Of a DNA stretch of 64,000 nucleotides, positions 6,077-46,969 are shown in pieces; the first letter of the stretch is position 1; each line of letters begins with the position of its first letter. The stretch spans positions 1-64,000 of the forward strand of contig JBAMJV010009369.1 of NCBI GenBank assembly GCA_037951105.1, in the 5' to 3' direction. The notes beneath the pieces were generated by a model, which was not told the DNA's origin, ran no database searches, and saw only the letters and a list, made by a program, of their open reading frames with translations. The position numbers and the translations under genes are program-made. Origin of the DNA: Echinarachnius parma. Taxonomy: Eukaryota > Echinodermata > Echinoidea > Clypeasteroida > Echinarachniidae.

Positions 6077-6705
6077 TGAAAGATAGCTCCTGAACCACTC
6101 CAAGGCCATCCCACGTACACCATAATGTGAAAGTTTATAAAGTAAAATATCGTGGTTAGTCGTCTCGAAGGCCTTGGAGAAGTCCAGGAAAATGCCTATC
6201 GTATGAGAAGATGTATCGATTGCATGAGCTACCTTCTCAATAAAAAACAACAATGCATGTACAGTATTATGGTTTTCCCTAAAACCGAATTGGAGATAAG
6301 AAAAAATATTATAATTTTTAAAAAAGGATACTGTCCGAGAATAAATTATCTTTTCTAAAATAAAAAAAGAGGACAATAAAGAAATCGGATGATTGCAATT
6401 CATCAAAATGTTTATTTAAACTTCGTATATTTAAATGCAATAAAGAAAATGTATCACTATTAAACTCGTTAATGATATTATAAAACTGTGCATTTGTTAT
6501 ATACTTTGTAAAAGAATGTTGTGCTGGATCATCGTGATCTAAATTCAAATTCAACTCTTCAGATGATGAATTTATACTTTCAACAACAGTTTCATCAAAG
6601 GTTCCTGTAAATTATTGTTAGCTTGAATGGGTCTTAATACATCAAAAAGGTCATCGTCTCTCACAGACTCAAAAGGTTAGTGGTGATCTAAATTAGCCAT
6701 AATAA

Positions 6706-19843: not shown

Positions 19844-22052
19844 ATGGGAAATGAAGGCATCATCATGAAGTCCCCATTTGAAAATATTCAGCTCCTCCCC
19901 GTGAGCAGGATCATGTTGGTCTTCATTCTAATCTACCTTCTATCTCTGGTTGGCCTAGCATGGTGTCATGTTATCATCAGTGAGGTCAACCTTGGTGCTG
20001 GCGAAGGGGTCAACGACTTTCCGTTTGTTGAACTCTTGAATACAGCCAACGAGAGCTACTCCATCACAAACTTCTCGCTCGTCTTGTTCAACTCATCGGT
20101 GGCCATCAGTTTAATTAGACTACCGAGAGTCATGCTCTCTCCGGGAGGGTATTATGTCATTGGATCACTGCCTCCCCAAGGTTCTCGTGTAAATGGATCA
20201 AGCATTAATGGATCAGCCATTGATCAAGGATGGTCGGGTGATGGATTGAGCGATGTGGACATTGGAGCAGTAGCTTTGTACGACGGAGAGAATGCAAACA
20301 TAGGGGTCGGGATGGAGCCAACTGCTCAATTCCTAGATGATGCCATTATTTTCTCAAAAGTAACCCCAAGCGATGCATCCATGCTTGCACCGGAGTTGGA
20401 TCAAGAGATTGTTGTAGTTCAAGATCAGTTGTACCTGCCAAAGCGTGCCTTATCAATAAATAGGTGTCCAGAACGTGATAGAAACGTGTATGGTTTCGCA
20501 AGCCCAAGTCCAAAGCAGAGAAACTTGTGTGAAAGTGTTGTAGTGCCTTCGCCAGTTGTGATAAATGAAGTGAACGCATTGAACCCAGGTGAAGACACAA
20601 TGGAGTACATAGAACTGTACAACAAAGCAAATATGTCAGTGTCCTTGAATAATTATGTTCTTATTTTGTACAATGGTGCTAGCAATAAAGCTTATCGCGT
20701 CATACCTCTAACAAATGCCTCTATTGAAGCTCTGGGATACTACTTGATTGGTTCTCAAAATGTTGAACCAACGCCTCAGACACTACTCGGGAATAGATTT
20801 GTTTTGAATATCTTGCAGAACGGAATAGCTGCTGTTGCTCTGTACAAAGGAAATGTGAGCGTATCGCAAGGCAGTAACGCAACAGACAGATTGCTCATTG
20901 ATGCGGTTGTGTATGACAAGCGAGGAAGACATGCGCAGGATTTGATAGATATTCTTACTCCAGGAGAAGACACAGTCCATGAGGACCATTCTTACATCGC
21001 GGGACTCGATGAATCCATTGGACGCTGTGAAGGCATTGATCGATTCAACACCTCTCAGTTCAGACTCACTCACCTTACACCCGCCACAGAAAACGACTGC
21101 TCTGTGATTGACCCCTCCCCTACCATTCCTAATTTTCCTCCCATTGATCCAGAGGCCCTGCCTTACATCGTTATAAATGAGTTCAGAGTAACTGACTCAG
21201 AATCGTTCATTGAGCTCTTTGATGGTGGTCTTGGAAGAGTTCCCCTTGATAGTGTGCTTTTAGTCTTCTACAGTGGCAGCAGCCTTTCTGTGTATACAGA
21301 GCCGGTATCTCTGCAAGGTCACTTCACAAACCAGAATGGTTACTTCCTCATCGGCGGCCAAGAGCTTCGACCCCGACCGGACCTTGTCCTTGAAACACTG
21401 CCCGAGGTAGATGGCTGCAATGCGATTGCCCTCCACTTACTAGAGCTTACAACAACTATTGAGGATGGGTCACCAGTCTCAAGGACTAGTCTCATTGATG
21501 TTGTCCTGTATGGAGAGCCTAGGACGCCGCAGGATCAGGACCTCATTGACATACTTGCTCCAGGACAGGTCTACTTGAGAAGCGGCAATGACGACCAGTC
21601 TTGGAGTCGATGTAGGGGATGGGATCGCTTCATGCAGGGGAGTTTTACCTTGGGTCCTGCCACTCCAGACACCTTAAACAGCTGCCCTCTTCCTCCCATC
21701 GTGATCAATGAAGTCAATATAGATCCCAGTAATGATTCCAATCAGTTCATAGAGCTATATGATGGGGGTGCTGGTTCACAAACCCTTGATGGCTTGGTGC
21801 TTGTTCTGTACAGTGGAGAGAGCAGCCAGTCCTATAGAGTTATCGATCTAACTGGGTATTCAACTGATGAAGCAGGATTTCTGGTCCTTGGTCCAGAGAA
21901 TGGAACAAATGTTGATCTTGTGTATGCGACGGATGGGATCTTCTTGAAGGGCGGACCTGATGCCATTGCTCTTCATGTTGGTCCTGCAAAGTACTTCAGA
22001 AGTAGACAGGCTTCTTCTACCAACCTGGTTGATGCAGTGGTGTACGGCACAG
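19844..22052 (+). CDS. LTD receptor exon 1: signal peptide and LTD modules 1-4
   Basis: A 2.2-kb exon (acceptor CCCAG at 19826, so 19827-19843 is 5' UTR or leader). I chose ATG 19844 as the first in-frame ATG; ATG 19865 and ATG 19913 are alternatives, and 19913 gives a classical 18-residue signal MLVFILIYLLSLVGLAWC. Four complete LTD modules follow: IISEVNLG, VVINEVNALNPG, IVINEFRVTDSESFIELF and IVINEVNIDPSNDSNQFIEL. The Cys-pair motifs INRC...RNLC, IGRC...ENDC and WSRC...LNSC close modules 1-3. Several Asn-x-Ser/Thr sequons fit an extracellular location. It ends in phase 1 at G|GTATTA. Confidence 0.88.
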
Positions 22053-25000
22053 GTATTAAGTCTAGATTCAGATAATTCTATAATTTTAGTCAATTCACAC
22101 ATCATATTTATGTACAGTATGTTATTGTTGATTTAAAGATTTAAGGACTTTGTCATTAATTAGATAATGTTTTGTATTGTCTTTTTTTTTAGGGGGGGGG
22201 GGGGGGGGTGAATGAGTATACTTGACATATTTCACCTGTTTTAAGCATGAATCCTTTGAATACAATTCAAATTGATTTTAATTCCATGTTTTTAGTTTTG
22301 ATATATATATGCTTGGATATTATTTGTTGATATCAATCGCTGATCCCTTTTAGTTCAACTTCAATTGTATCTAGATGATGTCCCTGATCTTGCGTTGCTG
22401 CACAAGCTCTTGCCGAACCAGCATCACCTCAACGAGATTCCTCATGATCCGTCATCATCAGTGGACAAGTCAATAAGCCGATGCTACTGCTGCACGCAGA
22501 GGAACCAGAGTGCCTTTGGGGGAGCTCCTTCTAGTCCTGGTGCCATCAACGTGGACTGCTCCCGCAACAATGAGACCTTCACAGAGACGGTGGCGATGTA
22601 TCAACGACTCCTGCGCATCAGTGAGGTCAAGTATGACAGCAGTGATCGGTCTGGAGGTGGGTTCCTGGAGATCTATGATGGAGGTCTAGGAGGTGTGGAC
22701 CTGGACAACATCCTCTTGGACCTGCTCACCATGAACTCTGCAGATGAGAGGTATCTATTTTTTTCTTTTTTCTTTTAAACGTAGTTTGGATTTGTAAATC
22801 AGATGGGCATTGCCTTCTTGGGATATGCTTCAAATTGATGGCAGTCCTAAAAAAAAAAACTAATTAATATTCCACTCCTAAATCAATGCTCAAAATTAAC
22901 TTTTTTTGCTGGTGGCCCGGTCGGGCCAGTAAAATTAGTATTTTTCTAAATTTGGTGGCCCGAAACCAAAATCTACTGGCCCGAAAAAATAAGGAAAAAC
23001 AAAAGTAAAATGTAAACAAACCATATTCATAGTACCCACTAGGCATTAGGCAATACTTGTTATTTTCCATTCCCCTTTGTTTCATTGTAAGATGAATTAA
23101 ATAAACATGAATTAGGATGAATGTGTGTGTGTCATGTCTTTTGTGGTGATGTGGTGTTTTATTGATCAAACAAACATTGGATTCTTCGTAAACAATATTG
23201 CAGACAAGTGAGACAACTCACAACACACTGTTCAAACTTCAAACATGATGTTGAATGTACGGGATTCATAACAAATTTGAAAGAAAAAAAAAAAAAAAAA
23301 AAAAAAAATCGTTTTAAAATTATTTTTTTTGGAGACACCCTGTAATTTGTTGTAGACACCGTGTAGTGCTGTTGGAATGCTTATACCACGGGTCTAGCAT
23401 TCATTAACATATACATTTTCTCACGTAAAAAAATTAAGGCTGAGTCGGTTCGGTCGATCACACCGGTTACCGACCGTTTCAATCGGGACCCGGTTTCGTT
23501 ATATCGGAAACGGTGCCCCGAAAAAAAATAAAAATAAATACAATGTTAAAAAAGAAATTAAGATTATCACAATAATGTAGCGGAATTCAAATAAAAACGG
23601 GGCAATTGATATCATTTACTTTAAAGAGTGGTTATTTTCGAGAAATTCTTGGTTCTTTACTTCGTTTGACAGTCAGAAATTGAACAGGAAGCGCAAAATT
23701 GCTAGTCATTTGAACGATATTGTCGGCGGATGTGCACACAATGTTAGTCCGATACTCCAGGGGAGTTGTCTGATGGATCTTTGTATGATCCAGCTGATAA
23801 GCCAGTGCATTCAAAAAGTAGCTCAAAATACGTTTTTTGGTCATTTGCACCATTTTAAAATGTTTTGATATTCTACTTACATGATTTCATGGCGTTTGAT
23901 AGCTGAACAGAAACAAAAATGAGCCCCAAAACAATGAAAACAATTAAGCAAAATATCGATAAAAAATGACTACATCGCTCCTATTCGCTTGTATACTTTG
24001 TGTGCAAACGTATGGCCGGCCTGGGATGAATTAGCATAGTTCCACCGGCCGGCGGATGAATCTCACGTAAGAAAAAAAGACCCGTAACTTGCATGCAAAG
24101 TATACGAGCGATATGCATGAAACAGCGGCCCGAAAACTTGCTGCATGCTGTAGCTCAATTCATCAACCTTCGATCCTCACGATCACGAATGTTCCTTGGA
24201 AATTTATCGATAATTCAGCACAGTTTTTTCATTGTTTTGGGGGTGATTTTGTATTCTGTTCAGCTTTCAAATGCCATGTTATCATGTAAGTAGACTACCA
24301 AAATGGTGTTGATTGCGAAAAGGCTAATTTATAGCCACTTTTTGAGGGCAGTGGCTCACAGTCACAAGCGATCGTTTCCCCCCGACTAGCGGGCTAAGTT
24401 TCTGTGAACCGCGTTGCGATGGGCAATGGTGAACAAACGATCGATTTATAGGTCCAATTTACTTTTTAAAAAAATACTTTTCATGCGAAACTGAGTTAAT
24501 TCTGGATAGTCTGTAACTATTTTCCCGTAAAGATTGATATGTAAATCCATAAAAGCCTCAGTATTTATAATGTTATTTGCATATAAAAAGAGCAATTTAA
24601 GCCCCAAACAGTGCACTTTTGCCGATGCGTGCACGATTGCGTGATTTTACCGGTCCGAGTTTCGACGGTAAAAATTTATCGGGATACCGGTTCCCGACCG
24701 GTAAAAGTTTATCGGGACCCGGTTCCGACAATTACCGACATGACTCAGCCTTAAAAAAAATAGTGGTTAGTACAAAAATTTCACATTTATTGGGTAGCAA
24801 CATAGTAACGGAGTAGTAATATATGAATATTCATGAGCAGCATATATGAATATTCATGATGCTCATTAGATATGCAAAATATGCAAAATAACTGAAATAA
24901 CTAACAACGATGTTTAATATGAATTTTTTTTGTATAACAACTGGTTAGAAAATAAGTACTGCTGCTCAATATTCATTTTTAACTAACCAATATTTTGTAT

Positions 25001-28000
25001 GTGAGAAAAGGGTATAAGTTGCTGAATGTTACGTTTAAAAGCAAGCTCTTGTCATGCCCTAAACAGGACTAAACATGACTACAAGGTATGTACAAATTTT
25101 TTTTTATTTTTATTTATTTATTTATTTATTTATTTTTTTGCTGGCCCAATCGGGCCACCAAACATTGAAATATGCGTTTTTTACTGGCCCGACAGCAATT
25201 TTTGGTGGCCCCGGGCCATCGGGCCTATGCTAATTTCGAGCATTGCCTAAATGGTTTGTAGAAAAACCCCTTACTCGGTTTACTTATGATATTTCAGTCA
25301 ACCACCAAACAGTCACTGTTACCGTCTTTCCAATATATATGTTACCTGTACAGTCGCTATCTACGCTTCAACTTGTCTGGCCACCAAACAAACTCTGAGG
25401 GCTACTTTGTCATCAACTCTCCCTCTCCCGATGTGGCTCCAACAATCGTGGTAAATCGGACCAGCGTGTCCCTCTCAGAGGACTCTGTTGACCACAGCAT
25501 GCCACTTATGCAGCAGGTATGTTTAACCCTCTGGTTACCAAGGTCGACTCTAGTTACGATACAAAATTAAAGCTATTGATTTGTTGTAGACTGCACACTA
25601 TAGGTAAGTGTGGAATGAATTAATATATACACACACACTTCTTATCAAGCTAAATATTATAACTTTTCACTGCAGATAAGTAAAGGGGATTATGATTAAG
25701 CTATTCAGGAAAAATCACTACAGATTCTTGTTCATTTAGTTTGGCGCTCAAGGGGTTAATGAAGGACTTGTCCTTAATGAATACGTTGGGAAGGAATTTC
25801 TAACGCTGCCAAAATCTACCAAAATAATGTTTTACTTATTTGCGGTTTCCCTTTGGAATGTAAAAGATATTCTGGGGAGATATCAGAATCTGTGACAGGT
25901 TTTTTTTTCAGTGATTCAAATATGCACTGTCATCTGTGTATAAAGTGGGGAGCAAATGTACCTTTCTAATTTGTTTTCCTGTAAGTTGGTTTCGTTGGTA
26001 TTTTTGTACAGTTGCATCCAGTCATCTGTGCAAAATATGTAATCTTTCACAATCAAATCATCTTGATTTACTGTTTTAAAGCATCTTTCTGCCGTATGTG
26101 TGTACTTTTTCATCTTAGAGTGATGCTGGCAATGTGCAGCTGTCTTCGGAGACCCTGAACAAGGTCATTGACACTGTGACCTTTGGCCTGGCAGGGACCG
26201 AGGACTGGATGTTACTGGGATCACTGGACATTGGCCTTTCTCTGGTGACCATCAATGACCCTGTGATGAATGGTAATTATAATGCTGTTAGGTAAAGAAA
26301 AAATCCCGGATCGATCTTGGATCGGTAGAATTCAAAATCGCTAACGAGATTCTCGGATCGGATCGGATCTCGGAAAAAAATAATATTGCAATTTGCTCTG
26401 AAAAAAATGCAGCGTTGTAGACTTATCTTTCTTGTTTTATATGCCAATAATATTAACAATGTTGACGCTTTGAGGCATGCACATATCAACCTTTACAGAA
26501 AAACAGTTACAGACTATTCAGAATTAACTAAGTTTCGCAAGAAAAGTATTTTTTCCGAAGTGAATTGGGCCTAGAAATCGATCGTTTGTTCAGCATCGCG
26601 CCACACATTCACAGAACTCAGCCGGCCACTCACGGGGAAACATCACATGAAAATATGTACGATCTTCTTGGTGAGGCCTTCAAAAAGTGGCTATAAATTA
26701 GCCTTTTTGTGATCAACACAATTTTGGTAGTCTACTTACATGATAACATGGCATTTGAAAGCTGAACAGATTTTAAAAAATACCCCCAAAACAATGAAAA
26801 ACTGGGCTGAATATATCGATAAATTTCCAAAGCACGTTCGTGAGGGAAGGTTGAAGTAGTTACGGTACCGGTAGCAGCAAGTTTTCGGGGCCGCTGCACT
26901 GCTGGCATGTTTCACGCATATTCGCTCGTGTACGGGTCTTTGTTTCATACGCCGGATTCATCCGCGATCTGTTATGTATTATACATGTAGTTGTTATTTA
27001 CCGATTTTTTTAGTAGTTGTTTGCATTGCTTTGGGGCTCAGTTTTTTTCTGTTCAGCTTTTAATAAACGCCATGCAATCATGTAAGTAGAATATCAAAAC
27101 ATTTAAACATGGTGCAAATAACCAAAATACGTATTTTGAGCCACTTTTAGAATGCACCGGCCGATCAGCTCGATCATACTGATATACATCTGAAGTCTCC
27201 CCGAGAGTGTCGGCCTAACTTTGTGTGCATTTCCGTCGGCAATATCGTTCAAATGACTAGCAATTTTGCGCATCCTGTTCAATTTTCGACTGCGAAACGA
27301 ATTAATGAACCAAGAATTTCTCCAAAATAACCACTCATAAAGTAAACAATATTGATTCCCCCATTCTTTATTTAAATTACACTACTTAATGGACTGTCAA
27401 ACATACACATTTTCAATAATTACTGGAGAAAATGGGTCGGCAAAATCTTCCGATATTTTCTACCGAGAAAATTTATTTCTCGGATCCGTCTCGGATCCGG
27501 CTCAGAAGCGATTATCGCCGGGAAATCGGATCGTTCCCGGATCGGATAACAGCATTAGGTAATTATCTTAACCCATTTGAGACAATTTGATTTTGATATA
27601 CCATAATAATAATATATCGTATTTGTATAGTGCCTAATGCAGAACAGCCTCTAAGGGCTTATTATTATCCCTGGTCATTTGGTACAGTTCAGACACGCAC
27701 AGTTATCTTGCACACATTCTCGACTCCTAGGGGAGCATACTATCCGCAGGCAACCATATAGGTGCACCAAGATTACATGCATTCTCCATAGGCTGGGGTC
27801 CAGCCTTAGTATTTTTGGGACGAGTCCTGAACGGGTTAAAGGCTACAGCTAGAGTACCGGATAACCTCTGCAACAATTTAGTGGCTGGAGGCATTATGAT
27901 TTGGGGTTGTCCATCTCTCTTTATGTATCATTCTCGTGGTCCTTGGGTCTTTAGTATCTTTAGGTCACTATAAGATTAGCTTTAGCTACTAAAATGTCTT

Positions 28001-37000: not shown

Positions 37001-40000
37001 CACGCTCCTCATGTCCCCTTTCCTCGTTGGCCGAACACCGACCCCAGATAACCTCAACGACTGCCCGTCCTTCGTCACCGACGTCGTCATCAACGAGATC
37101 AACGTCGACATCCCTGGCATGGACACCACGGAGTACATTGAGCTCTACGATGGGGGGCGGGGTAATGTCTCGTTGGACTTCACCACTTTGGTGCTGTTCA
37201 ACGGGGCGGGGTCGGAAGACCTGTCTTACCTCTCCCTGGGGCTGGATGGCTATCGGACGGACTCCAGGGGATACTTTCTGATTGGCTCGCACCTGTTTGG
37301 AGAAAGTAAGCAAGAAACTGATCATTCTTATTATTGTTTAAGCAAAAAAAAACAAAAAAATAGCGCCACAGTGTGCTGCATAAGTTATTCATACATTGAC
37401 CAACCAATCTCTTTAAAAGTTGAAAACTAATTGCCTATCAGAAAATTTCCAATCAGAAAATTTTACATTTTACAATATACTTACATAATTTACTTTACCT
37501 AATACTTGACAAACAGATCTGAAATTTGCAAAACACTTGCTCTTCAGAAAATACTTTATTTATTTAAATTATTATGCAGATTTTGCTTGCATAATTCGGC
37601 CACTTTGGTTCTTGTTCTACCTCAAAATACATGACTGAATGTTTCATGACTATTTTAAATATGTCTACATTTATACCTGTGAATTCTAGCGCACACTTAT
37701 TTGTAATTTTTCCTACTATTTCCATTAAGGAGCTGACCTGATGATCCACTCCGCTCCCAGAGGGTTCCTCCAGAATGGGCCTGATGCGGTGGCCCTCTAC
37801 AGGGCCCACGTGGGCGCCTTCCCCTTTGGAACCACTGTCACCGGAACCAGTCTCATTGATGCCCTGGTGTATGCCATCAACGACAAAAAGGATTGGAGGA
37901 TGGTCAATAAGCTGGTGCCAGGTACGAGGATAAAGAAAGAGGAAAAAGGCAATTAACAATCAAAAGGAGAAAATATGTCAAATCAGATTTACCAATTTCC
38001 TACCTTTGGTACATTTACATCCATTGTGGAACTTATGGTCTTATGGTCTTGGTGGTCTGGAGAATGGTCAATGAACTATTGTGCCAGGTATATGGACGTT
38101 TATAAGGGAAAACATTTCGGGAAATGGGATATAACAAATGTATTTGTTGTTGAGAGGTTGTTCCCCTTTTGTTCTCTTCCATTATGAAACAACCCTCATT
38201 TTATATGTTCTTGTGTATTCCATCAATAACACATAGGATTAGAGAATGGTCAGTGAGCTAATGTAGTGCCAGGTACGAGGACATTTCTTAGTGAGCAGTT
38301 GCTATAGACAGGTTTGACTGTATTATTGCTGCTGGGGGGTGATTCACAAAGATCCTAAGTTGAACTTAACACTAAGTTGGACTTATAAAGTATGTAAAGC
38401 CATTTGTAGCCTTGGAATAAAATATATTCAAATGCCAAAATGCAAGTATTTTGGACTTTCATAAATTTTACATGAAGAACATGAAATCTCCTTGATAATA
38501 CAAAAATATTAGTGATTTAAAACAACATTATATGCCTTTAAAAAGGACTTTTACAAACGGCTTTCCATACTTTTTAAGTCCAACTTAGAGTTAAGTTCAA
38601 CTTATGATCTTGGTGAAACACCCCCCTGGATTGTTATAGACTAGTGATATGAATGACCGTTTGCTTGCCTCCCCTGTTTTACAGGCTACTTCACAATCAA
38701 AGAAGACAGGGCTCATCTTGCCCGAGATGAGAGCTTGAGTCGTTGCCATGGGTTACACCGCCGGGACCCTACTGCCTTTGCCCTGACCCATCCAACACCA
38801 GGCAGGCAAAACAACTGCACCGCATCGGTTGACTTTGATAGTGGCAAGTAGTACAATTTTATCAAGTTTACTAATTAGCTGCAGATTCAGATTCTCAACA
38901 TTTAGTATAGTTTTTCCTGTTTTGTTCTTCTTTTCAATAGAAGTAAAATCATGTAAGAAAGCTAAAAAGAGTTGTACAGTAAAAAAAAAAAAAAAAAAGT
39001 ATTGAAACATTCACTTGAACTTATGACCCATCAATTATTGATTGACACTATTTTTGCATGAGATTCAAGCAGTACATGTACTGCACGATTGATATATTTA
39101 TTGTAGTTATAAAAGTAATGATGCATGTTTATTCAAAACTTGTCTTTAGTTCCCTCTACAATTTTGGATACAATAAAACAAAAATTGGAGATTGGTTTAT
39201 TCCTTGTGATTTATGTCACTAAAATATATATCAGAACTTCTGCAGTCATATACTACTTGATGTAAGTCTTTCCTTTTCTGCTACTGGCAGTTTTGATTAT
39301 TGAGCTAAATCAAAAACTCATATCAGTATTAGATAAATTGCAATATTATATATATTAGAATTTCTACTTTCTGTGTTTCTATCATGTGACAGCTGTGATC
39401 ATCAGTGAGCTCAACGTCATCGATGACCCCTTCAATCCAGTGGGACAGTATGTGGAGATCTACGACCACGGAGTGGGCCACACCCTGCTCAACGATCTCC
39501 TGTTGGTCTTCTTCGATGGCAGTAATGATAGATCCTACTTTGAGGTGGATCTCTCTAACAGAGTGTGAGTTTTTAGAATTAACATTTTAAACTTTTGATC
39601 ACAATAAAAATGTTTATTTCTGAAATGTTTGGCCGTCATCAACAGCCTTTGTCAGCATTTTTACCTGACTTGACATTTCTGATTAATTATCATATTGTAG
39701 ACATTCGGTAGTTTGTATTTCGCGCCCCTGTTCAGTGTGGGTTGAAGGCCCGGCTGTAGATTGCTTCCTTCACCCCTCAAGGTATTGAGCCTCCCTGTCC
39801 AAAATATGAGTATTCTGCCAAATATAAATCTTTTATTTGTTGAATCTGTAATTCTCCGGGAGACTAGAATCTTCTAGAGTGAAACCCTTGTGTAATTAGT
39901 GCACCTGGGGTTGTTGCATAATGGGATCAATCGCAAAGTTGCGATTAATCGCAAGTCAGAAAATGCGCCTAAATGCGCAACTCAGATTGGCTCACGCGTG

Positions 40001-43000
40001 CATATTTTCTGACTTGCGATCCAAATAGAGGGCTTTGACTGCTCTCCTGCATGATTACCCCCTTGAAGAATTGCAAGAAATCTAGGATTCCAAACTGAAG
40101 TAGTCGGCCAGGAGAGTGTTTCGCAAAGAATTATGTCTCAACATAATTCTGAAAGTCTCTCGTAAGTATATTAAGTAGTAGGCCACTAACAAGAGAATTC
40201 ATATTCATTTCTACACCCCTCCCCCCCCCCCCCCCTAGGAACCACTTGGTTCCACTCGATTAGAAGAAACATCTTGGGGGATTTTTGTTTGATCTTTCAA
40301 ATTTTCTATGCTCATTTTCATATATTTTTGGTTATTTTCCCTATGTTTGAAAAAATCTTGAAAAAAAAATAAATTTCCAAACAGAACACATGCTGACGGC
40401 TACTACCTGATCGGCACTGGAGATGTATCACCCCGCCCTGACCTGGTCATACCGCAGGGGGTCATCCAGGGGGGGTCGGACGCTGTGGTCCTGTACAGGG
40501 TGCCTTCCAACTCCGGGAGTGAGAGCTTTCCACGTGGCTCGGGGGTCTCCACGGACGACATCCAAGACGCTGTCGTGTACGGGTCATCCATGGCCAGCGA
40601 CGCATCACTGATGACCACTCTGGCACTGGGACAGATGCAGGTGATGGAGGTTGCAGGAAGCAGGGTTGGGGGTGACAGGAGCATAGGAGGAGGAGGGAGT
40701 AGAGGAGCTCTCTCTGCCAGCCGATGTCTCTCTAATCAATCTGTAGCGATGTCTGCGTTCATCTCGGCCATTCCTAGCCCAGGTCAGTGTTGCATTCATC
40801 TCAATTTCTTTGGTTTTTTTCTTTTTTCTATTTGATTATATGTCTTTCTTGTTTTATATCTCACTTTCTATTTACCAACTCTTTCTATACTCTCCCTGTT
40901 TTTCCGATGAACTGTAATTGTTTTAGAAAATTATGTCATTATAAAAGTAAATTCAAGAAAAAGATTGTCAACTTCACTTACATGCTTGCTCAGTATCTAC
41001 CTTTATGTTCATATTCAGGATTGGTCACAAAATATGACTTACAACAAATTCAACTCCTCTTCAGTAGATTTATTTGTATTTCAGAATAGAAAAGGTTTGA
41101 ACATCAAGACTTTTTATGTCATTTTAGTCAGCAATTTTTTGTTTTATCCTCCCGGTAGGCACTCAAAATAATTGCATGCTGCCGCCTGTCATTATCAATG
41201 AGCTCAACCTAGAGAACCAGGCAGTGGGGTCAAGGGAGTTCATTGAACTGTTTGATGGAGGCCAAGGTTCAACGCCCTTGGACAGCCTGATTGTGGTGCT
41301 GTTTGCAGGCGTGAATGGAGGGAGAGCCTACAAGACTATCCCTCTACAGGGTCACCGAACTGATGAGTAAGTACAAACTAAATCTTTTCTATGAAATTAT
41401 ATTGCATCGGCTTTGACTGAAGGAAGTTAAGTGACCTCTCAGGTATGTGTCAAAGGTCATGACCCTGAGACAGCCTGATTGTGGTGCCGATTGCAAGGGT
41501 CACTGAACTGATTTAGTAAGTAGAAACTAAATCTTTTATATGAAATAAGATTGCATCAGCTTTGGGTGCAAGAAGTTTATTGAACTCTTTGGTATGTGTC
41601 AAAGGTCATCACCCTAAGATCTGATTGCGGTGCTGTTTGCAGGAATCAATGTAGATAGTGTGTACAAGACTATTCCAATAAAGGGTCATTGAACTGATCA
41701 GTAAGAGTTCTAGAAATGTATGTTTTTAAAATTCACTTTGCCAAAATTTGGCAAACTTGACATTGGCATCTAAATGTACCATTGAAACTTCTTCAATGAC
41801 ATATTCTATATTAAAATGATAGAATATTTGTCGAAATATGTATGGAATTGATATAGAAAGATTTCCCCTTTTGACCCGGGAATGGATACTTCTTGGAAGA
41901 TGTACCAGACACTTTTAATTTGCACACTTTCATTTCTGTCAAGGAATTGTTCTTTGAAATGTTCAATGAAATAATGATATTCTATATTAATATAGAATGT
42001 TTTTAGTTGTAATATTTATCAATCGATCTGATATCGAAATATTCCCCCTTGTGACCTCCAGGAATGGCTTCTTCTTGATCGGCACATCCCAGTCCTCGAC
42101 CTACCTAGACATCTCCGTTGGCAACCTTGGGCACAGCTTCCTCAGGAATGGTGCTAACGCTGTGGCCCTCTATCGAGGCGACCATCGGGACTACCAGCCT
42201 GGGATGCCGGCCACTTCCCTGGGCCTGGTCGACGCTCTCGTGTTTGGCACCGTTGACCACCGCAGTATCATGCTCGTAAACGAGCTTCTTCCTGGTGAGA
42301 CCTGTACATCGTGTATATGATAGTTATTGTTGAGTATTGTCTCTTCTTGTATTTCTTTATTGGTGATCTTGTCTCTTTTTCATTCTCTCTCTCCTTTGTG
42401 TGCAACCTAACTTTATATCAACTGGGTATGTAAAACGTGGGAATTTCGACATGCTATCTGTAAAATAAAGATACGTTAGTGTAACACTTGTATGGATTAT
42501 ATGAACAATTCTGATTATCTTCAGCTATGAAACAAAATTTGTCATCTTGGAGGTGTTCCACAAAGCACTACAATCAATTTCAGCATTGATTCAAGGGGAT
42601 GATTGTCACCCAAAATCAATGTTAAAAATAATGTTGTTTTGTTGTTGTTAGTGAAACGCCCTACTGTTTTATCTGACCGACAGGATGACTATAATGTCTA
42701 TTCCATCCCATCAGGTCAAGACCAGGTGACCGAGGATGCTAGATTCCAGGTGGGAGACGCAGGGCTGAGCCGCTGCGAGTCACAGCGCCCCCTCCAGTCT
42801 ACAGCCTTCAAGCTGGCTCATCCATCGCCCCGGCAACCAAACCTGTGCTCCCCAGAGGCTGGCACTCCGTCGCCACCCCAGCTGGTGGTCATCAACGAAG
42901 TCAATCCGTTTGACGTCGCGACGGGAGGAAAAGAGTTCATCGAGCTGAAGGGGCCACCCAGTGCCTCCTTGGACGATCACGTCATAGTGATAGTCATGGA

Positions 43001-46000
43001 GAACACCAACGTCGCAACCGTCTCTCACGTCGTCGATCTGAGCGGGAAACGACTCGACCCAGGTGGATTCTTTCTTATCGGTGCTGCCACCGTGTCACCA
43101 CTACCCACAGTATTATTCCCGGAAAGAGCCAATGGTACGCTCGAGGCAACAGGGGGCGCTGTGACTATTTTCCGTGGCCAGCCGGAGGAGTTCATGGTTG
43201 GATCTTCGGTGCGCGTCAACCGGATCGTCGATGCTGTGGTATACAGCAATGCAGCCCAAGCCAGTATGCTAGGTGCATTAACCACCACTGGGAAGACATT
43301 CGTGGATGATGCAAGGTGAGTTTGTGCTGATTTCTCTCTAAAAGATTAATTTCTATTATATTCTCGTATGATTTGCTTCAGCATTTGTTGATATAATTAT
43401 TATATTTAGTACAATTATTCTGCAATGTATTAGAAATACCAGGTGTACTTGATTATACTAGTACAAATACTTGTGCAAATAACATTTATATTTTGTTCTC
43501 ACAATTTCTACTTTTGCATTTTATATATTTGTAATTGTTTTGAAAAGTTTGCAAATAAAAAAAAATCAAAATTGAATTTTTAAAAATTAATCATAAAAAA
43601 GATTTGTAATCTAAAGTAGATAGCAAACTAGTGGGGCCGTAAAATAAAAAAAATTAACAAAATTTCTGCATTGATACTAGTTTGCTAACATATTCAAATT
43701 GCATGCACAGTGTTTTTTAACAAGTGTTGATCTTAGTAACCTGAGCATTTGCCTAAGCTTTTCGCAACATAGCAGCAATCAGTGTTAGCTCATTGGATTC
43801 AAGTTTTAGCTTATGATTGACATTTGCATTAACTGTATTTGTTTGTTATGACATCAGCGTTCTTCCCGGTGACGAGACCATCTCTCGATGTTCTTGCTGC
43901 GAGCTGAGGTCCACCTTTGTATTCATGCTGACCACTCCAACCCCCGGGAGTGAGAACGCCTGCCCCGGGCACCAATATGGCCGGAAGATTCAGCTCAGAC
44001 TGCTGGACATGGTGTACGGTGTGTACAGAGGGAATTCCGATAGGATGATGACTGCTATTAGAGACGTGATCGTTGATGGGGTGAAGAAAGAGTGCGCCTG
44101 TCGATTCAACGCTTTGTATTTGCAAGGTACATATGCTTGATTGATTGATTATTTGGTTGGTTGGTTTATAATTGATTGATTGATTGATTGATTCAAACTG
44201 TGATGATTGTCAAATTAAATGAATAACGTCTCTTTGTTATTCTGTATTTCTTTCTCATCAAAGTTTATAGAGATGAACTGGTGATCATAATGTAAGGTGA
44301 AATTGTATTTGAATAATTATTTCTGTAGCTCATTACTGCTTTATTTACTTTAGATTACTTGTGTGTAGAGACGTATTAAAAGCAGTTTGCTTATTTGCAC
44401 CTGTTAGCATCAGTTCTTTTGATTCATGGCCAGTACTTGTTGTTTATATTGTTGTATGTTATTGTTTTTGTTGTTCTTCTTCTTGTTATTATAATTCAAT
44501 GCAGGGCAAGACGTGTTGTTGTTTTTTTTTTTTTTTTTTTTTGGGGGGGGGGGCTAATTTTCAAGCTTGCCTGCATGAAAACTCAAAAATTTCATTTGCA
44601 CTGAACTCTTTTATGATTTCCATTGTTTTTTTTTTGTCATTTCGGGGGCGGAGATCGTCCTGAACCCCAGTGTATTTTTACACTGTTTCTTTGTACCGTA
44701 ACCTTTTCTCTCTCTCTGTGTCTGAACAAACCAGATGAGCGTCTGTTGAACGGCAGTGTGATCTACCAGGCCGTGTTGTTGGCCCTTAGTCCCACGCAGG
44801 CTTCTCGGCTGTGGGATGCCTACACCAGCTTCGTCGGACGCACCAAGAGCGTGACGATCCTGGGCAAGGAGTATCTGGTGGATGGCACGTGCGTCGCTGA
44901 CTGCAGTTCCAAGGCGGAATATCGTAAAGCCGTCCTCGTGCATCCAGGTGATTATTCAGTAATTCATATATATATAACAATGTCCCTTGCATTCTCAACT
45001 GTCAAGATTTCTATTATTAATCAAACTGGAGCATCCTGCCATCTTTAAGGGTGTTAGTTAGATGGACTTTTTTGTGCCTCGTGAAAATGCAAATGTGCCA
45101 TACATGTAGTTTTTAGATCATCATCATCATCATCATTATACTGAGTGTTTCTACAATACTGTCATGATATTACAAAAATTGCCACTTTCTCTCATTGATC
45201 CCAGGCCCAGCCATGATCGTAGGAGTCACAGTAGCAGTTGTCTTGGTGATAGGCTTTGCAGCGGCCATTTTGTTCTACTTCAAGAGGAAGAGACCAATCT
45301 CTTTCAAAATGTAAGTAAACCTGAAAGATTTAAATGCATGGTTACAAGATAAAAATTTGAATTGGTGAGGTATGTTTTCTAAAAACTATTGTTAATGATA
45401 CAGATCGAGGACAGTCTAGATGTGATCCTGAATGGGTTATTAATTTAAACTTCAAAGTGACCACTGTAGGCAGGTGGTCACTATAAATATGTTTTGTAAG
45501 TTTTGTATAACTGTTTTCTTCTGCACATGATCCATTTGCAGTGCAATTAATACATTGAAGTAGGTGGCTTTAGACAGGTAACCACTATTAGACATGTTTG
45601 ACTATACATTGAATATCAACATAACAGTTGCAATTATTTGTTAAAAATGAGGACTAAATATTGCCTTTGTAGTTTATGCAATCATCCCAAGCAACGTACA
45701 CCGTGTCTGGAGTGCATTCTTATTGAAATGTATACATCTTTTATGCTAATTAATGTCTCTTTTTGACCCGTTCCCTGATAGATTATATCATTCTCGTAGA
45801 GTTAACCGATTCAAGACTATTTGATTTGGTATAACATTCATTCTTTATAGACCCCAGCCGAGTTTCTTCCGGTCCTAAAAAGGTTTAATTGTATATGGCA
45901 CAATAACTAGGTTTGCTATATATAATAAAGGAATTAACCTGTTCCCTTTGAGCTCTCAAAATCTCCATAGACTTTGTACACGACCCACCCGGTTCCCGTA

Positions 46001-46290
46001 GTCAAGGGGTTAATTAATTATCACTCCCTTCTTATCTCCCAAACAGGGGAACGATGCGTTACTTCAAAGAGGAAATAGACTTGGACGGAGAGTTCCGAGT
46101 GACGAACGCCTGTCAGCTGGAGGACCTGGACGTGCTTGCACGCGAGACCGACGACAACTTTGTCAATCCTTACTTTGGTGTCCCGCCGACCGTCCTTGAG
46201 ACAAGAGAGACTGCCATTCTGGGCAATGGCAACAAGAATAGCCCGGTCAGTGTAGATCTGGAGGTGGACACTAGCATCAGCCATGCATGA
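19844..46290 (+). CDS. Multi-LTD type I transmembrane receptor-like protein (whole gene, 20 coding exons)
   Basis: Span of the assembled gene; exons are listed separately. The joined CDS is 7,062 nt and encodes about 2,353 residues. In order: a hydrophobic signal sequence (23-41), eleven LTD-like modules beginning near residues 42, 238, 440, 617, 815, 1004, 1170, 1348, 1540, 1740 and 1936, a SEA-like domain (about 2113-2237), one transmembrane helix (2241-2263) and an acidic cytoplasmic tail. Each LTD starts with (V/I)(V/I)I(N/S)E(V/I/L), then (F/Y)(I/V)E(L/I)(Y/F)DGG, and ends G(Y/F)(F/Y)(L/V)IG; a (V/I)DA(V/L)V(Y/F) strand and an SxSRC...P(T/S)Px3NxC Cys pair follow. LTDs are known from lamins and bacterial secreted proteins; a surface adhesion or receptor role is inference. 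I do not recognise a named orthologue. Confidence 0.85.
22375..22750 (+). CDS. LTD receptor exon 2: end of module 4, first half of LTD5
   Basis: Acceptor ATCTAG, donor GTATCT, phase 1 to phase 2. It carries DLALLHKLLPN, the Cys motif SISRCYCC...INVDC (a CYCC cluster, richer than other modules) and LTD5 beginning LLRISEVKYDSSDRSG with FLEIYDGGLGG. Confidence 0.85.
22884..25245. mobile_element. TIR DNA element in intron 2, itself carrying a nested hAT element
   Basis: Ends CAATGCTCAAAATTAAC and GCTAATTTCGAGCATTG are inverted repeats, flanked by CCTAAAT (22877-22883 and 25246-25252). Subterminal GGCCCGA/TCGGGCC blocks (CTGGTGGCCCGGTCGGGCC; TGGCCCAATCGGGCCACC) are also inverted. Without the nested insertion it is about 1.04 kb. 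A partial copy is at 31491-32118. Confidence 0.75.
23435..24753. mobile_element. hAT-type element nested in the intron 2 TIR element
   Basis: A 1,319-bp element starting TAAGGCTGAGTCGGTTCGGT and ending ACCGACATGACTCAGCCTTA, with an exact 8-bp duplication AAAAAAAT (23427-23434, 24754-24761). Subterminal ACCGGT/CGGGACCCGGTT repeats are mirrored at both ends. No intact transposase. Its interior shares blocks with the element at 26280-27557, in inverted orientation. Confidence 0.8.
25354..25516 (+). CDS. LTD receptor exon 3: second half of LTD5
   Basis: Encodes RYLRFNLSGHQTNSEGYFVI, the C-terminal strands of LTD5, then a Ser/Val-rich linker. The acceptor is CTGTACAG at 25353: only this site keeps the phase-2 frame. 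The alternative CAG at 25297 puts the LTD strands out of frame and meets a stop. Phase 0 donor GTATGT. Confidence 0.8.
26119..26272 (+). CDS. LTD receptor exon 4: module 5 linker
   Basis: Acceptor ATCTTAG, phase 0. Encodes SDAGNVQLSSETLNKVIDTV, matching the (V/I)DAVVY position of other modules (here VIDTVTFG), then LLGSLDIGLSLVTINDPVMN. The donor is GTAATT; the last exon base and the donor are part of the 8-bp duplication made by the adjacent hAT insertion. Confidence 0.8.
26280..27557. mobile_element. hAT-type element inserted at the exon 4 splice donor
   Basis: A 1,278-bp element with ends TAATGCTGTTA / TAACAGCATTA and an exact 8-bp duplication GGTAATTA (26272-26279, 27558-27565). Subterminal CGGATCGGATCGGATC-type repeats occur at both ends. 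The interior is related to 23435-24753 (shared GCTGAACAG, CCCAAAACAATGAAAA, ATCGATAAATTTCCAA blocks in opposite orientation). The first duplication copy contains the exon 4 end and donor. Confidence 0.85.
27566..28617. other. Intron 4 sequence, no gene seen
   Basis: Contains a short block near 27600-27880 with dispersed-repeat character (TCGTATTTGTATAGTGCC, GGCTGGGGTCCAGCC) that I cannot classify. No exon needed by the reading frame. Confidence 0.4.
28618..29032. mobile_element. TTAA MITE family B, copy 1
   Basis: A 415-bp element, ends AGGGGACCACCAGG / GGGTGGTGGTACCCT, flanked by TTAA (28614-28617, 29033-29036). Shares blocks such as GATATCA, AATTCATAAACAA and ACAAGTT/AACTTGTT with copies at 58938-59326 and 59884-60277. 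Confidence 0.78.
29589..29803 (+). CDS. LTD receptor exon 5: Cys motif of module 5 and start of LTD6
   Basis: Acceptor ACCACAG, phase 1 in, phase 0 out. Contains VDSIQRCYSPKPKEQLAF, NSC, and LTD6 starting VVINELNPDSPIIDLGEYVE. The donor GTATGC lies in the first unit of a 46-50 bp tandem repeat made of the exon tail and donor. Confidence 0.85.
29776..29950 (+). repeat. Tandem copies of exon 5 3' end with its splice donor
   Basis: The exon 5 tail plus donor, (A)ATCAACAATATCACTTTG|GTATGCTTTAT, is repeated: second copy with donor at 29850, third at 29900, and a decayed fourth near 29935. Periods are 46-50 bp. Read-through to the second or third donor introduces a stop or a frameshift, so only the first keeps the protein intact. 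Confidence 0.8.
30105..30857 (+). mobile_element. Helitron-like non-autonomous element, copy 1 (intron 5)
   Basis: The 3' end has a hairpin TTCGACAGCAGTCGAA (30831-30846), 7 nt, then CTAG (30854-30857) before T, the Helitron 3' layout. The 5' part begins near CCTCCTCCAATGAAGTGGCC. The interior is tandem blocks of about 120-150 bp, each with CTCAAGAAC, CAAACTTGG and a run of AGGTCA half-sites. No Rep/helicase coding. 5' border approximate. Confidence 0.7.
30858..31490. other. Intron 5 sequence, no gene seen
   Basis: Short open frames here lack splice sites or domain similarity. Confidence 0.4.
31491..32118 (+). mobile_element. Partial copy of the CAATGCTCGAAATTAAC TIR element
   Basis: Begins CAATGCTCGAAATTAAC and follows 22884-23360 and 24820-25085 closely, lacking the nested hAT element and the right terminus; it breaks off in a poly(A)/(TA)n run at 32116-32145. 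This copy shows the pre-insertion state of the nested site. Confidence 0.75.
32265..32336 (-). tRNA. tRNA-like gene, anticodon UCC (Gly), array unit A
   Basis: A 72-nt cloverleaf on the minus strand: acceptor GTCCCCG/CGGAGAC (one mismatch), D-arm GCCTAGTGGTTAAGGC, anticodon arm TCGGC-GTTCCAA-GCCGG with TCC at 34-36, variable loop AGAC, T-arm CCAGGTTCGAGTCCTGG. TTTTT follows within 4 nt, a Pol III terminator. The C discriminator and mismatched acceptor are unusual for tRNA-Gly, so it may be a tRNA-derived repeat, but folding and terminator are intact. Confidence 0.65.
32664..32717 (-). pseudogene. tRNA-like gene of array unit B, 3' portion, split by insertion
   Basis: Same sequence as unit A from the 3' end to the D-loop (with one G-to-T change in the acceptor), then broken at TTAA 32714-32717 by the 1,294-bp insertion. 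The remaining 5' portion is at 34012-34034. Confidence 0.8.
32718..34011. mobile_element. 1,294-bp TTAA-flanked insertion in the tRNA array
   Basis: The flanks are TTAA at 32714-32717 and 34012-34015, and removing it restores an exact 399-bp unit. TTAA duplication suggests a piggyBac-type event, but the ends (AGTGATTATTC and ...ACCAGCAGT) are only weakly inverted. The interior is unusually GC-rich (33180-33400) and ends with promoter-like sites at 33753-33821. No recognised protein. Confidence 0.7.
33753..33821. promoter_or_regulatory. Promoter-like cluster: TATA, NRF1-type and CRE sites
   Basis: TATATAAA at 33753-33760, a perfect palindromic NRF1-type site GCGCATGCGC at 33772-33781 and a perfect CRE TGACGTCA at 33814-33821, all within 70 bp of a GC-rich island. 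Sites are exact matches; promoter function and direction are inference. Confidence 0.4.
34012..34034 (-). pseudogene. tRNA-like gene of array unit B, 5' portion
   Basis: The 5' D-arm and acceptor sequence matching unit A, separated from its 3' part (32664-32717) by the TTAA insertion. Confidence 0.75.
34361..34432 (-). tRNA. tRNA-like gene, anticodon UCC (Gly), array unit C
   Basis: Identical over 72 nt to the unit A copy, with the same downstream TTTTT terminator and flanks. Confidence 0.65.
34589..34682. repeat. Inverted fragment of the tRNA array unit
   Basis: The reverse complement of the unit segment from the tRNA 3' end (GTCCTGGCGGAGACC) through AAGCTACGCCTACTATTATT, joined head-on to truncated unit C. 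It shows the array end was rearranged. Confidence 0.8.
34963..35437 (+). CDS. LTD receptor exon 6: rest of LTD6 and start of LTD7
   Basis: Phase 0 in (acceptor CTGACAG), phase 1 out (GTAAGT). Encodes SLTLNGYRTDSNGLLLIG, RDGPDSVAIFRG, YMIDKVEYD, the Cys motif TSISRC...ALNLC and LTD7 TILINEVSLVTGEQFVEIW. The junction with exon 5 is slightly shorter than in other LTDs, so a few residues could differ in the real transcript. GC-rich relative to flanks. Confidence 0.85.
35898..36038 (+). CDS. LTD receptor exon 7: LTD7 core strands
   Basis: Encodes DGIVLVLFGDGDQSYSTFTL and GHHTNQAGYFVIGESG. Acceptor ATGACAG, donor GTAAGA, phase 1 at both ends. Confidence 0.85.
36369..36544 (+). CDS. LTD receptor exon 8: LTD7 tail
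   Basis: Encodes GFIRPNYGAVALFRISG and LLDAVVYSDWTNGSATG, the alanine-leucine and DAVVY strands that close each LTD. Phase 1 in, phase 0 out (GTAAGT). Confidence 0.85.
36948..37305 (+). CDS. LTD receptor exon 9: Cys motif of module 7 and LTD8
   Basis: Encodes SLSRCFSTDTLLMSPF...LNDC, then LTD8 DVVINEINVDIPGMDTTEYI, ELYDGGRGNVSLDF, DGYRTDSRGYFLIGSHLFG. Phase 0 in, phase 1 out. Confidence 0.88.
37730..37921 (+). CDS. LTD receptor exon 10: LTD8 tail
   Basis: Encodes RGFLQNGPDAVALYRAHVG and SLIDALVYAINDKKDW, ending NKLVP and a split Gly codon. Acceptor ATTAAG, donor GTACGA. Decayed copies of this exon's 3' end lie in the next intron. Confidence 0.85.
38030..38285 (+). pseudogene. Two decayed copies of exon 10 3' end and donor in intron 10
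   Basis: Copy 1 at 38048-38090 (GGTCTGGAGAATGGTCAATG ... GTGCCAGGTATATGG) and copy 2 at 38212-38282 (GTGTATTCCATCAATAACAC ... AGAATGGTCAGTGAGC ... GTGCCAGGTACGAGG) match exon 10 GTGTATGCCATCAACGAC ... GGATGGTCAATAAGCTGGTG CCAG|GTACGAGG. Both retain GT donors but have lost the frame. Confidence 0.75.
38333..38625. mobile_element. MITE with long inverted repeats (intron 10)
   Basis: GGGGGGTGATTCACAAAGAT...AAGTTGAACTTAACACTAAG...TTGGACTTATAAAG pairs with CTTTTTAAGTCCAACTTAGA...GTTAAGTTCAACTTATGATC...GGTGAAACACCCCCC. Arms are about 60 bp; the ends read TGATTCACAAAG / CTTGGTGAAACA, a layout shared with several small foldback repeats nearby. Confidence 0.7.
38685..38843 (+). CDS. LTD receptor exon 11: Cys motif of module 8
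   Basis: Encodes GYFTIKEDRAHLARDESLSR, then C..., ending PTPGRQNNC and TASVDFDSG. The only donor that keeps the frame is GCAAGT at 38844, a GC-AG intron. Phase 1 at both ends. Confidence 0.82.
39393..39564 (+). CDS. LTD receptor exon 12: start of LTD9
   Basis: Encodes AVIISELNVIDDPFNPVGQY, VEIYDHGVGHTLLNDLLLVF and FDGSNDRSYFEVDLSNRV. Donor GTGAGT at 39565 (phase 2) is preferred over the overlapping GTGTGA two bases earlier, which would give a stop after the junction. Confidence 0.85.
39565..40384. repeat. Intron 12; contains a foldback repeat at about 39925-40025
   Basis: GATCAATCGCAAAGTTGCG...ATCGCAAGTCAGAAAATGCG pairs with TGCATATTTTCTGACTTGCG ATCC. A related arrangement (GTTGCGAGTCAGAA / TCTGACTTGCAGTTAAT) is at 51405-51475. 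A C run of about 16 is at 40220. No exon here. Confidence 0.5.
40385..40782 (+). CDS. LTD receptor exon 13: rest of LTD9 and Ser/Gly-rich linker
   Basis: Encodes THADGYYLIGTGDVSPRPDL, IQGGSDAVVLYRVPSNSG and DIQDAVVYGSS, then an atypical insert rich in Gly and Ser (about residues 1670-1700, GGDRSIGGGGSRGALSASRC) before the second half of the Cys motif. Phase 2 in, phase 1 out. Confidence 0.85.
41159..41366 (+). CDS. LTD receptor exon 14: start of LTD10
   Basis: Encodes GTQNNC (second Cys of module 9), PVIINELNLENQAVGSREFI, ELFDGGQGSTPLDSLIVVLF and QGHRTD. Acceptor CGGTAG, donor GTAAGT, phase 1 to phase 2. Two decayed copies of its 3' end follow in the intron. Confidence 0.87.
41465..41705 (+). 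pseudogene. Two decayed copies of exon 14 3' end in intron 14
   Basis: Copy 1 (from about 41467) has GACAGCCTGATTGTGGTGC, then GGGTCACTGAACTGATTTAG|TAAGTAGAAACTAAATC. Copy 2 (41610-41705) has TCTGATTGCGGTGCTGTTTG CAGG...GTACAAGACTATTCCAAT...GGGTCATTGAACTGAT. Both match exon 14 and its donor flank; internal deletions and stops rule out use as LTD10 exons. Intron sequence GTCAAAGGTCAT is duplicated with them. Confidence 0.8.
42062..42294 (+). CDS. LTD receptor exon 15: rest of LTD10
   Basis: Encodes ENGFFLIGTSQSSTYLDI, LRNGANAVALYRGDHRDY and LGLVDALVFGTVDHRS, ending NELLPG. Acceptor CTCCAG, donor GTGAGA, phase 2 to phase 1. Confidence 0.87.
42553..42662. repeat. Small foldback repeat in intron 15
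   Basis: GGTGTTCCACAAAGCACTAC ... TTAGTGAAACGCCC with inner CAATCAATTTCAGCATTGAT / AATCAATGTT similarity. Its TTCCACAAAG/GTGAAAC ends resemble the MITE at 38333-38625. Confidence 0.45.
42715..43315 (+). CDS. LTD receptor exon 16: Cys motif of module 10 and the whole of LTD11
   Basis: The acceptor CCATCAG at 42714 keeps frame; the nearer GACAG meets a stop. Encodes DAGLSRCESQRPLQSTAF, PNLC, then LTD11 LVVINEVNPFDVATGGKEFI, SLDDHVIVIVMENTN, DPGGFFLIGAATVSP and NRIVDAVVYSNAAQAS. This LTD is intronless. Phase 1 in, phase 2 out. Confidence 0.87.
43316..43857. other. Intron 16, nothing recognised
   Basis: AT-rich intron sequence without repeat or exon structure that I can support. Confidence 0.5.
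43858..44126 (+). CDS. LTD receptor exon 17: last Cys motif and start of SEA-like domain
   Basis: Encodes VLPGDETISRCSCCELRS, PTPGSENACPG (end of module 11, Cys 2112), then KIQLRLLDMVYGVYRGNSDR and AIRDVIVDGVKKECACRF. The strand-helix pattern after residue 2113 fits the first half of a SEA domain. Acceptor CATCAG, donor GTACAT. Confidence 0.83.
44127..44734. other. Intron 17 with low-complexity tracts
   Basis: Contains (TTGA)n near 44140-44200 and a T run followed by a G run at 44520-44555. Confidence 0.6.
44735..44947 (+). CDS. LTD receptor exon 18: second half of SEA-like domain
   Basis: Encodes ERLLNGSVIYQAVLLALSP, TQASRLWDAYTSFVGRTKSV and DGTCVADCSSKAEY. GSVIY at residues 2173-2177 sits where SEA domains carry the GSVVV autoproteolysis motif, in a beta strand just before the second helix. 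Phase 1 at both ends. Confidence 0.82.
45205..45310 (+). CDS. LTD receptor exon 19: transmembrane helix
   Basis: Encodes GPAMIVGVTVAVVLVIGFAA, AILFYF, then the basic stop-transfer KRKRPISFK. A single helix followed by positive charges means type I orientation with the LTDs outside. Donor GTAAGT, phase 2. Confidence 0.88.
45311..46046. other. Intron 19, nothing recognised
   Basis: No repeat or exon-like structure supported. Confidence 0.5.
46047..46290 (+). CDS. LTD receptor exon 20: cytoplasmic tail and stop
   Basis: Encodes the C-terminal 81 residues: MRYFKEEIDLDGEFRVTNAC, then DDNFVNPYFGVPP and a final DLEVDTSISHA, TGA at 46288-46290. The tail is acidic. NPYF resembles NPxY/NPxF sorting or adaptor-binding motifs; that role is inference. 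Partial copies of this exon's end follow in the 3' UTR. Confidence 0.85.
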
Positions 46291-46969
46291 AACATTCCAG
46301 GTTAAAATGTGCCATTTTGTAGCCGTTTTCGGAATGAAGATACACACAAATATATGTGTGCGTTTTGCTACGCTAGCATCAGTTATGCATGAAAATATTT
46401 CTCAATGTGAAACATTCCTGATGGAAATATGCTGTTCTATAGCCATTTTCTAAAATGAAATTGTTTTTCTGACAATCCCTTCTTTGGAGTCCTGCCCATA
46501 ATGCTGACCGTCCTCAACACAACAGACACTGCTGTTCTGGACAATGGTAACAAGAATGGCCCGGTCAGTGTAGATCTGGAGGTGGACCCTAGCATCAGTT
46601 ATGCGTGAGAGGAGGTCTCGCTTTGAAGCATTCCTGCAGGAAATATGCTGTTTTGTACCCATTTGGGGGGAATTAAGGCGCACAAACCTCTGTGTGAACT
46701 GCTACAAAATGACCACAAAATGACTCCAAAATGCTATCAGAAAAACTACAGAACAGTAAGTAAGTTTTGTCTGATATGTATAAACACATTCTTTCAATAG
46801 AAGATGAAAATATTATATATGTACATGTATCACGAAAGCGGAATTATAGATCTTGCTTAGATTGCAAAAATTAATTTTTGCTTTTGTAGCAGAAAATGTT
46901 GCACCTTAGAATTTGAAACTAGTATCATGTATTGTTCTTTGCTAGAGATAGGGGACACTTTATATAAAC
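46291..46969 (+). other. LTD receptor 3' UTR region
   Basis: Follows the stop at 46290 and includes the duplicated exon 20 fragments. No AATAAA is present before 47328, so the polyadenylation point is not defined by sequence alone. Confidence 0.4.
46369..46625 (+). pseudogene. Partial tandem copies of terminal exon 20 in the 3' UTR
   Basis: A long copy (46470-46610) encodes DNPFFGVLP, then DTAVLDNGNKNGPVSVDLEV and DPSISYA with TGA, closely matching the real tail (DNFVNPYFGVPP, GNGNKNSPVSVDLEVDTSIS). A shorter copy of the stop region lies at 46369-46435 (GCTAGCATCAGTTATGCATG). No acceptor precedes the long copy at the original exon border, so it is probably untranslated. Confidence 0.82.

Follow-up and report, generated by a model that had tools for sequence, protein, structure and literature searches.

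Eleven lamin-tail-domain-like modules in tandem make up nearly the whole predicted exterior of a type I membrane protein in Echinarachnius parma

In animals, lamin tail domains (LTDs) are mostly associated with the nuclear interior. The locus described in the present study, which lies in a 64000-nucleotide stretch of E. parma DNA (GenBank assembly GCA_037951105.1, contig JBAMJV010009369.1, positions 1-64000; hereafter the window), is well suited to the questions of what LTDs may bind when outside the nucleus and how an extracellular module of bacterial type entered animals. Here a lamin-tail fold of the extended kind seen in bacteria, cysteine pair included, appears to build nearly the whole exterior of a giant animal membrane protein. 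We found no report of an animal protein with an extracellular array of LTDs in the literature searched, most subscription journals being outside that search. In the portions of text available, the LTD mentions in papers on octopus mucus, pearl oyster and flatworm, and in those on tardigrade lamin, an archaeal biofilm and a planctomycete, could not be linked with this architecture.

The initial annotation had joined twenty exons in one frame into about 2353 residues, and a splice-site search followed by assembly rebuilt this gene, i.e. 20 coding exons on the + strand at 19844..46290, forming a single frame of 7062 bases that encodes 2353 residues and one terminal stop. Open frames and conserved peptides (recognized by eye) were taken as the framework, in-frame GT/AG pairs between them were scored, and each junction was chosen by splice score together with repeat continuity. 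All 19 introns have an AG acceptor and 18 are GT-AG, the remaining one being GC-AG; exon 11 has a GC donor (G/GCAAGT, after 38843), and no good GT donor was found at junction 11. Some of the chosen sites score low against the consensus matrix, e.g. acceptors 22375, 40385 and 44735 and donor 22052, and a better module fit led us to prefer acceptor 22375 to the higher-scoring 22354 at junction 1, and 37730 to the higher-scoring 37763 at junction 9. The start at 19844, the same coordinate as in the initial annotation, is the first ATG in frame; we are unsure whether the initiator is methionine M1, M8 or M24, the last of which begins an ordinary-looking signal sequence. The gene and its exons, as assembled, are as follows.

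19844..46290, + strand: whole gene, 20 coding exons, 2353 aa and stop (splice-site search, assembly)
19844..22052, + strand: exon 1, with signal sequence, modules M1-M3 and two thirds of M4
22375..22750, + strand: exon 2
25354..25516, + strand: exon 3
26119..26272, + strand: exon 4
29589..29803, + strand: exon 5, donor inside a 50-bp tandem repeat
34963..35437, + strand: exon 6
35898..36038, + strand: exon 7
36369..36544, + strand: exon 8
36948..37305, + strand: exon 9
37730..37921, + strand: exon 10
38685..38843, + strand: exon 11, followed by the GC-AG donor
39393..39564, + strand: exon 12
40385..40782, + strand: exon 13
41159..41366, + strand: exon 14
42062..42294, + strand: exon 15
42715..43315, + strand: exon 16
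43858..44126, + strand: exon 17
44735..44947, + strand: exon 18
45205..45310, + strand: exon 19
46047..46290, + strand: exon 20, most of the 90-residue cytoplasmic tail and stop

Several separate genes are not supported, as the modules stay in frame across the internal junctions, although module continuity also guided the choice of some of these. Introns divide the array among 17 exons, and bacterial contamination was rejected on that ground.

The repeat that holds the exon 5 donor has 3.4 copies (window 29786-29945) and so offers several potential donors in a row. Intron 5 contains repeat copies at 32164-32700 and 34016-34700 with near-identical frames; they include tRNA-Gly-like parts (32264-32337 and 34360-34433) and are, by eye, probably a tRNA-derived SINE. 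Elsewhere in the window lie a reverse transcriptase fragment on the minus strand at 6008-6415 (Pfam RVT_1, E 4.4e-12) and, downstream of the gene, a tandem array of a 151-bp unit at 48167-48820. Behind the stop lies a second, in-frame copy of the final part of exon 20 (46185-46290 and 46503-46608, spacing 318 nt, 86% identical), and the downstream copy, which reads FSDNPFFGVLP...SISYA and has its own stop, may be a relic or an alternative tail. The mitochondrial contig of the genome has, by eye, the order nad1-nad2-cox1-nad4L-cox2-atp6-cox3-nad3-nad4-nad5, with nad6 on the opposite strand and a cob fragment; a nad4L placed between cox1 and cox2 points to the echinoderm arrangement, of the sea urchin or sea cucumber type. 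At 19.7 kb this contig carries cob, nad6, nad5 and nad4 stretches twice (L106, and L107 with broken frames), representing assembly overlap or duplication.

The central claim of the initial annotation, eleven tandem LTD-like modules each with its own cysteine pair, was examined with a profile of 68 thinned bacterial modules that contained no animal row, the bacterial modules themselves having been found with animal queries. This profile gave exactly eleven consecutive matches in the protein (30.9 to 169.5 bits, the weakest with an E of 1.2e-11) and 0 matches in 200 shuffles at E≤1, and among the six-frame ORFs of the window it matched only + strand frames of this gene. In addition, the search of the assembled protein against Pfam that the initial annotation had proposed returned LTD (PF00932) in four stretches with 130.1 bits, against a cut-off of 34.3, as the sole Pfam family at E≤1. 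These data bear out the eleven modules, which are listed below with their profile scores.

19967..20530, + strand: LTD module M1, aa 42-229 (30.9 bits)
20549..21100, + strand: LTD module M2, aa 236-419, structure predicted (123.9 bits)
21155..21685, + strand: LTD module M3, aa 438-614 (91.9 bits)
21686..22559, + strand: LTD module M4, aa 615-798, across intron 1 (149.0 bits)
22560..29683, + strand: LTD module M5, aa 799-999, across introns 2-4 (64.4 bits)
29684..35334, + strand: LTD module M6, aa 1000-1163, across intron 5 (58.4 bits, profile 4-128)
35335..37064, + strand: LTD module M7, aa 1164-1342, across introns 6-8 (85.0 bits)
37065..38818, + strand: LTD module M8, aa 1343-1531, across introns 9-10 (169.5 bits)
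38819..41175, + strand: LTD module M9, aa 1532-1735, across introns 11-13 (114.2 bits)
41176..42848, + strand: LTD module M10, aa 1736-1921, across introns 14-15 (142.4 bits)
42849..43963, + strand: LTD module M11, aa 1922-2112, across intron 16 (80.5 bits)

The modules are 164-204 residues long and, as had been claimed, each has a cysteine pair, which here closes the module with 20 to 24 residues between and lies at profile columns 161 and 185 in all eleven. Ten positions are invariant in the alignment (I5, E7, E22, L54, G63, D118, R159, C160, N182 and C184 in M2 numbering), and ten of the eleven modules match the profile over its full length, C-terminal extension included, to position 181-183, M6 stopping at 128. 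Two extra cysteines each occur at the first cysteine of the pair in M4 (SRCYCC, aa 773-776) and M11 (SRCSCC, aa 2088-2091), where extra disulphides are possible. Across the 1.2 Gb genome, Pfam LTD matches at E≤0.001 number three: this gene accounts for two (42.8 and 31.5 bits), and the third (43.4 bits), on a different contig, belongs to an ordinary lamin tail, as judged by eye from the translation. With the exon 1 protein as query, the genome yielded 12 matches at E≤10, all within this gene, and no further array.

That the modules have an LTD fold, as proposed earlier, agrees both with the Pfam result for the whole protein and with the predicted structure of one module. A first prediction run without an alignment was unusable (pLDDT 36.4); the M2 model, at pLDDT 87.7, is predicted to be a lamin-type Ig-like sandwich with a C-terminal extension, and matches of lamin structures to it mostly stop near model residue 125, ahead of the extension that bears the cysteine pair. 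A sequence search of the PDB, up to E 10, returned chance-like matches only. Foldseek against predicted viral structures gave four matches at E≤0.001, two of which are named phage proteins. A viral origin was considered and rejected, as no relative was confirmed in viral contigs and the weak matches in phages and plasmids belong to an unrelated gene.

A hydropathy scan picked out two strongly hydrophobic stretches, at residues 12-50 and 2232-2266, and all 25 of the 25 N-glycosylation sequons lie ahead of the membrane helix; with the frame continuous, these data uphold the earlier assignment of a signal sequence, one transmembrane helix and type I topology.

19913..19966, + strand: hydrophobic signal sequence, from methionine M24 (hydropathy scan, conserved peptides by eye)
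43964..44946, + strand: pre-membrane region, aa 2113-2237, SEA-like by eye only
45213..45281, + strand: transmembrane helix core (hydropathy scan, conserved peptides by eye)
46159..46176, + strand: FVNPYF, FxNPxF-type internalisation motif, aa 2311-2316 (motif search of the tail)

Given its signal-type N-terminus, its membrane helix and the lack of a rod, we rejected a lamin-like or nuclear identity for the protein. The SEA-like domain of the initial annotation was not confirmed: the region, divided between two exons, resembles SEA by eye, and no Pfam SEA match was listed in the C-terminal part at E≤10, SEA being divergent and the HMMER filters dropping most matches above about 0.1. The best Pfam match of the C-terminal 241 residues was to Amnionless (E 0.092, 12 bits, below the cut-off of 30.4). 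A separate Amnionless is encoded on a different contig of the genome (34.3 bits), where a downstream frame of the unassembled gene reads FDNPIYG. By eye, the downstream frames there bear no evident resemblance to our C-terminus beyond the NP motif, and with the Pfam score also below its cut-off, homology of this C-terminus with Amnionless was rejected.

Where, then, do the modules come from? Relatives were sought with M8, M4 and M10 as queries across bacterial and archaeal species, each represented by a single genome, and 198 of 356 pattern matches encode relatives. Among the best 80 of the 198, the nearest relatives found are whole modules of ~180 residues in bacterial proteins, with 38-47% identity. 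A profile of the animal modules identified 149 full-length modules in 80 bacterial ORFs, with one module in 35 ORFs, two in 31, three in 8, four in 2 and five in 4 (2-5 in 45 of the 80). Both cysteines are present in 60 of the 149 modules, spread over 30 loci that include no record titled as Bacteroidota. As judged from these sequences, the cysteine pair is no animal invention, and, because bacteria share whole modules, pair included, and also string them together, neither is the LTD building block an animal novelty. When 16 of the bacterial ORFs were scanned with Pfam, an exo/endonuclease domain was present in 10 and absent from 6, of which three (L028, L074 and L088) reach a contig end and may be cut; bacterial LTD modules also adjoin Big_5, PKD or dockerin domains.

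The best bacterial match exceeds the best sister module for M4 (134 vs 109 bits), M8 (142 vs 128) and M9 (121 vs 94) and falls below it for M1 (47 vs 63), M2 (102 vs 120) and M10 (120 vs 128), a comparison that favours M8, M4 and M10 because the bacterial rows were selected with them. In a tree of the 149 bacterial and 11 animal modules with no outgroup, all animal rows lie outside the bacteria on long branches. A second tree included as outgroup 21 other LTDs from the same ORFs, with 36 thinned bacterial rows and the five less divergent animal modules (leaving out M1, M3, M5, M6, M7 and M11), and here the animal modules fall in a single clade (99/92) nested among the bacterial ones, adjoining Verrucomicrobiota rows (86/86); a topology with the bacteria held as one clade was not rejected (p-AU 0.409). 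Among the 16 introns inside modules, the only position shared with its phase is that at column 163 in M8 and M10, and 3.7 modules lie within one exon (exon 1), which suggests that most introns arrived after the modules had multiplied.

Horizontal transfer of the modules from bacteria, possibly as an array and with introns gained later, is on these data a possible origin, although in our view less likely than not. It would explain why M4 and M9 are closer to bacterial modules than to their own neighbours, and is in keeping with the bacterial ORFs of up to five full-length modules, the intron pattern and the nesting of the five animal modules among bacterial ones. However, that placement is not significant, the larger tree sets all eleven animal modules outside the bacteria, and for several modules (M1, M2 and M10) a sister gives the best score, ahead of every bacterial row; moreover, the bacterial rows were chosen for likeness to M8, M4 and M10, and the animal rows all come from this one gene. 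The alternative is an old eukaryotic LTD lineage that descended vertically and was lost in many groups, in favour of which speak LTD-like domains reported in non-lamin proteins of several eukaryotes (PMC5630835, available portion) and the long animal branches, which could fit great age. We give it nearly the same weight as transfer; against it, 38-47% identity to bacterial modules over ~180 residues is judged high for descent since the eukaryote ancestor.

As for its function, the features of the protein point, with about even confidence on our part, to a type I endocytic receptor. The initial annotation had described one type I membrane protein, which stands, and had suggested an adhesion or recognition receptor; we favour uptake because the tail carries FxNPxF. 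The basis for the endocytic reading is one short motif, and thus thin evidence. F.NP.[FY] arose in 253 of 200000 shuffles of the tail, a statistic for that single pattern which disregards other acceptable tail motifs; FxNPxF-type sites in the window DNA number one, against a mean of 0.86 expected by chance, so that the weight of FVNPYF rests on its position in the tail. In the proposed mechanism, the cysteines would form one disulphide within each module, which would make the ectodomain a rod of eleven stiff beads that may bind a repetitive or multivalent ligand. The FxNPxF motif of the tail would recruit PTB-domain clathrin adaptors, for this motif of the Dab2/ARH type, and receptor and cargo would be taken in. 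The most speculative step is the ligand, perhaps extracellular DNA, chromatin or microbial surface material, proposed because bacterial modules often sit on nuclease-bearing proteins. The available text of PMC6085458 places bacterial LTDs either alongside hydrolases or in several tandem copies within one protein, and describes their role as not known; the LTD of ExeM is needed for full activity in vitro and is dispensable for DNA clearing on plates, and DNA binding by LTDs is therefore not established. The fullest scenario, an array from a bacterial secreted nuclease-type protein that was joined to an anchor and an endocytic tail as a receptor for extracellular DNA-containing or microbial material, strikes us as quite improbable; if true, a bacterial extracellular domain was turned into an animal cargo receptor.

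Two other functions have to be weighed against an endocytic receptor. The array might bind a neighbouring cell or matrix, the tail motif merely recycling the receptor or binding a PTB scaffold; many adhesion receptors likewise have a long tandem ectodomain and a single pass, and the Big_5, PKD and dockerin neighbours of bacterial LTD modules fit such a role. We nevertheless regard adhesion as rather unlikely, given that no partner or matrix-binding motif was noticed (without a systematic search) and that the tail motif is of a kind that promotes internalisation (PMC8710305, available portion). Very improbable, in our view, is a mainly secreted or shed protein with a self-cleaving juxtamembrane SEA domain, whose array would act in body fluid, mucus or skeletal matrix. 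SEA domains are cleaved at GSVVV, a site that LNGSVIYQAVLL in region 2113-2237 resembles by eye, but the lack of a listed Pfam SEA match noted above speaks against it.

The proposed endocytic receptor can be set beside several known systems. Nuclear lamins have a coiled-coil rod (Pfam filament), to which our protein gave no match at E≤1, and a C-terminal CaaX that is absent here, the protein ending in SISHA; CaaX is also missing from some lophotrochozoan lamins, according to the text available of PMC10125929. Bacteroides BT_1938 (DUF4876, PDB 4q1z) shows 13% identity, and its structure title gives no function. Amnionless, which belongs to the cubilin receptor complex, resembles our protein in its single pass and FxNPxF-type tail motif and has, as far as the accessible part of PMC8710305 describes, a SEA domain in the ectodomain as well as two FXNPXF motifs that promote internalisation; in contrast, its ectodomain contains beta-helices instead of LTDs, and the LTD-array protein has one F.NP.[FY] motif rather than two. 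The bacterial extended-LTD proteins share the same full-length module, its conserved residues, the cysteine pair (in the proportion given above) and the tandem arrangement, some with linkers of 0-4 residues. They differ in that none of the 80 ORFs has more than five full-length modules, whereas the animal protein has eleven, carries no enzyme domain in Pfam (no match at E≤1 to the exonuclease-endonuclease-phosphatase domain of ExeM-type nucleases) and possesses a membrane helix and a cytoplasmic tail.
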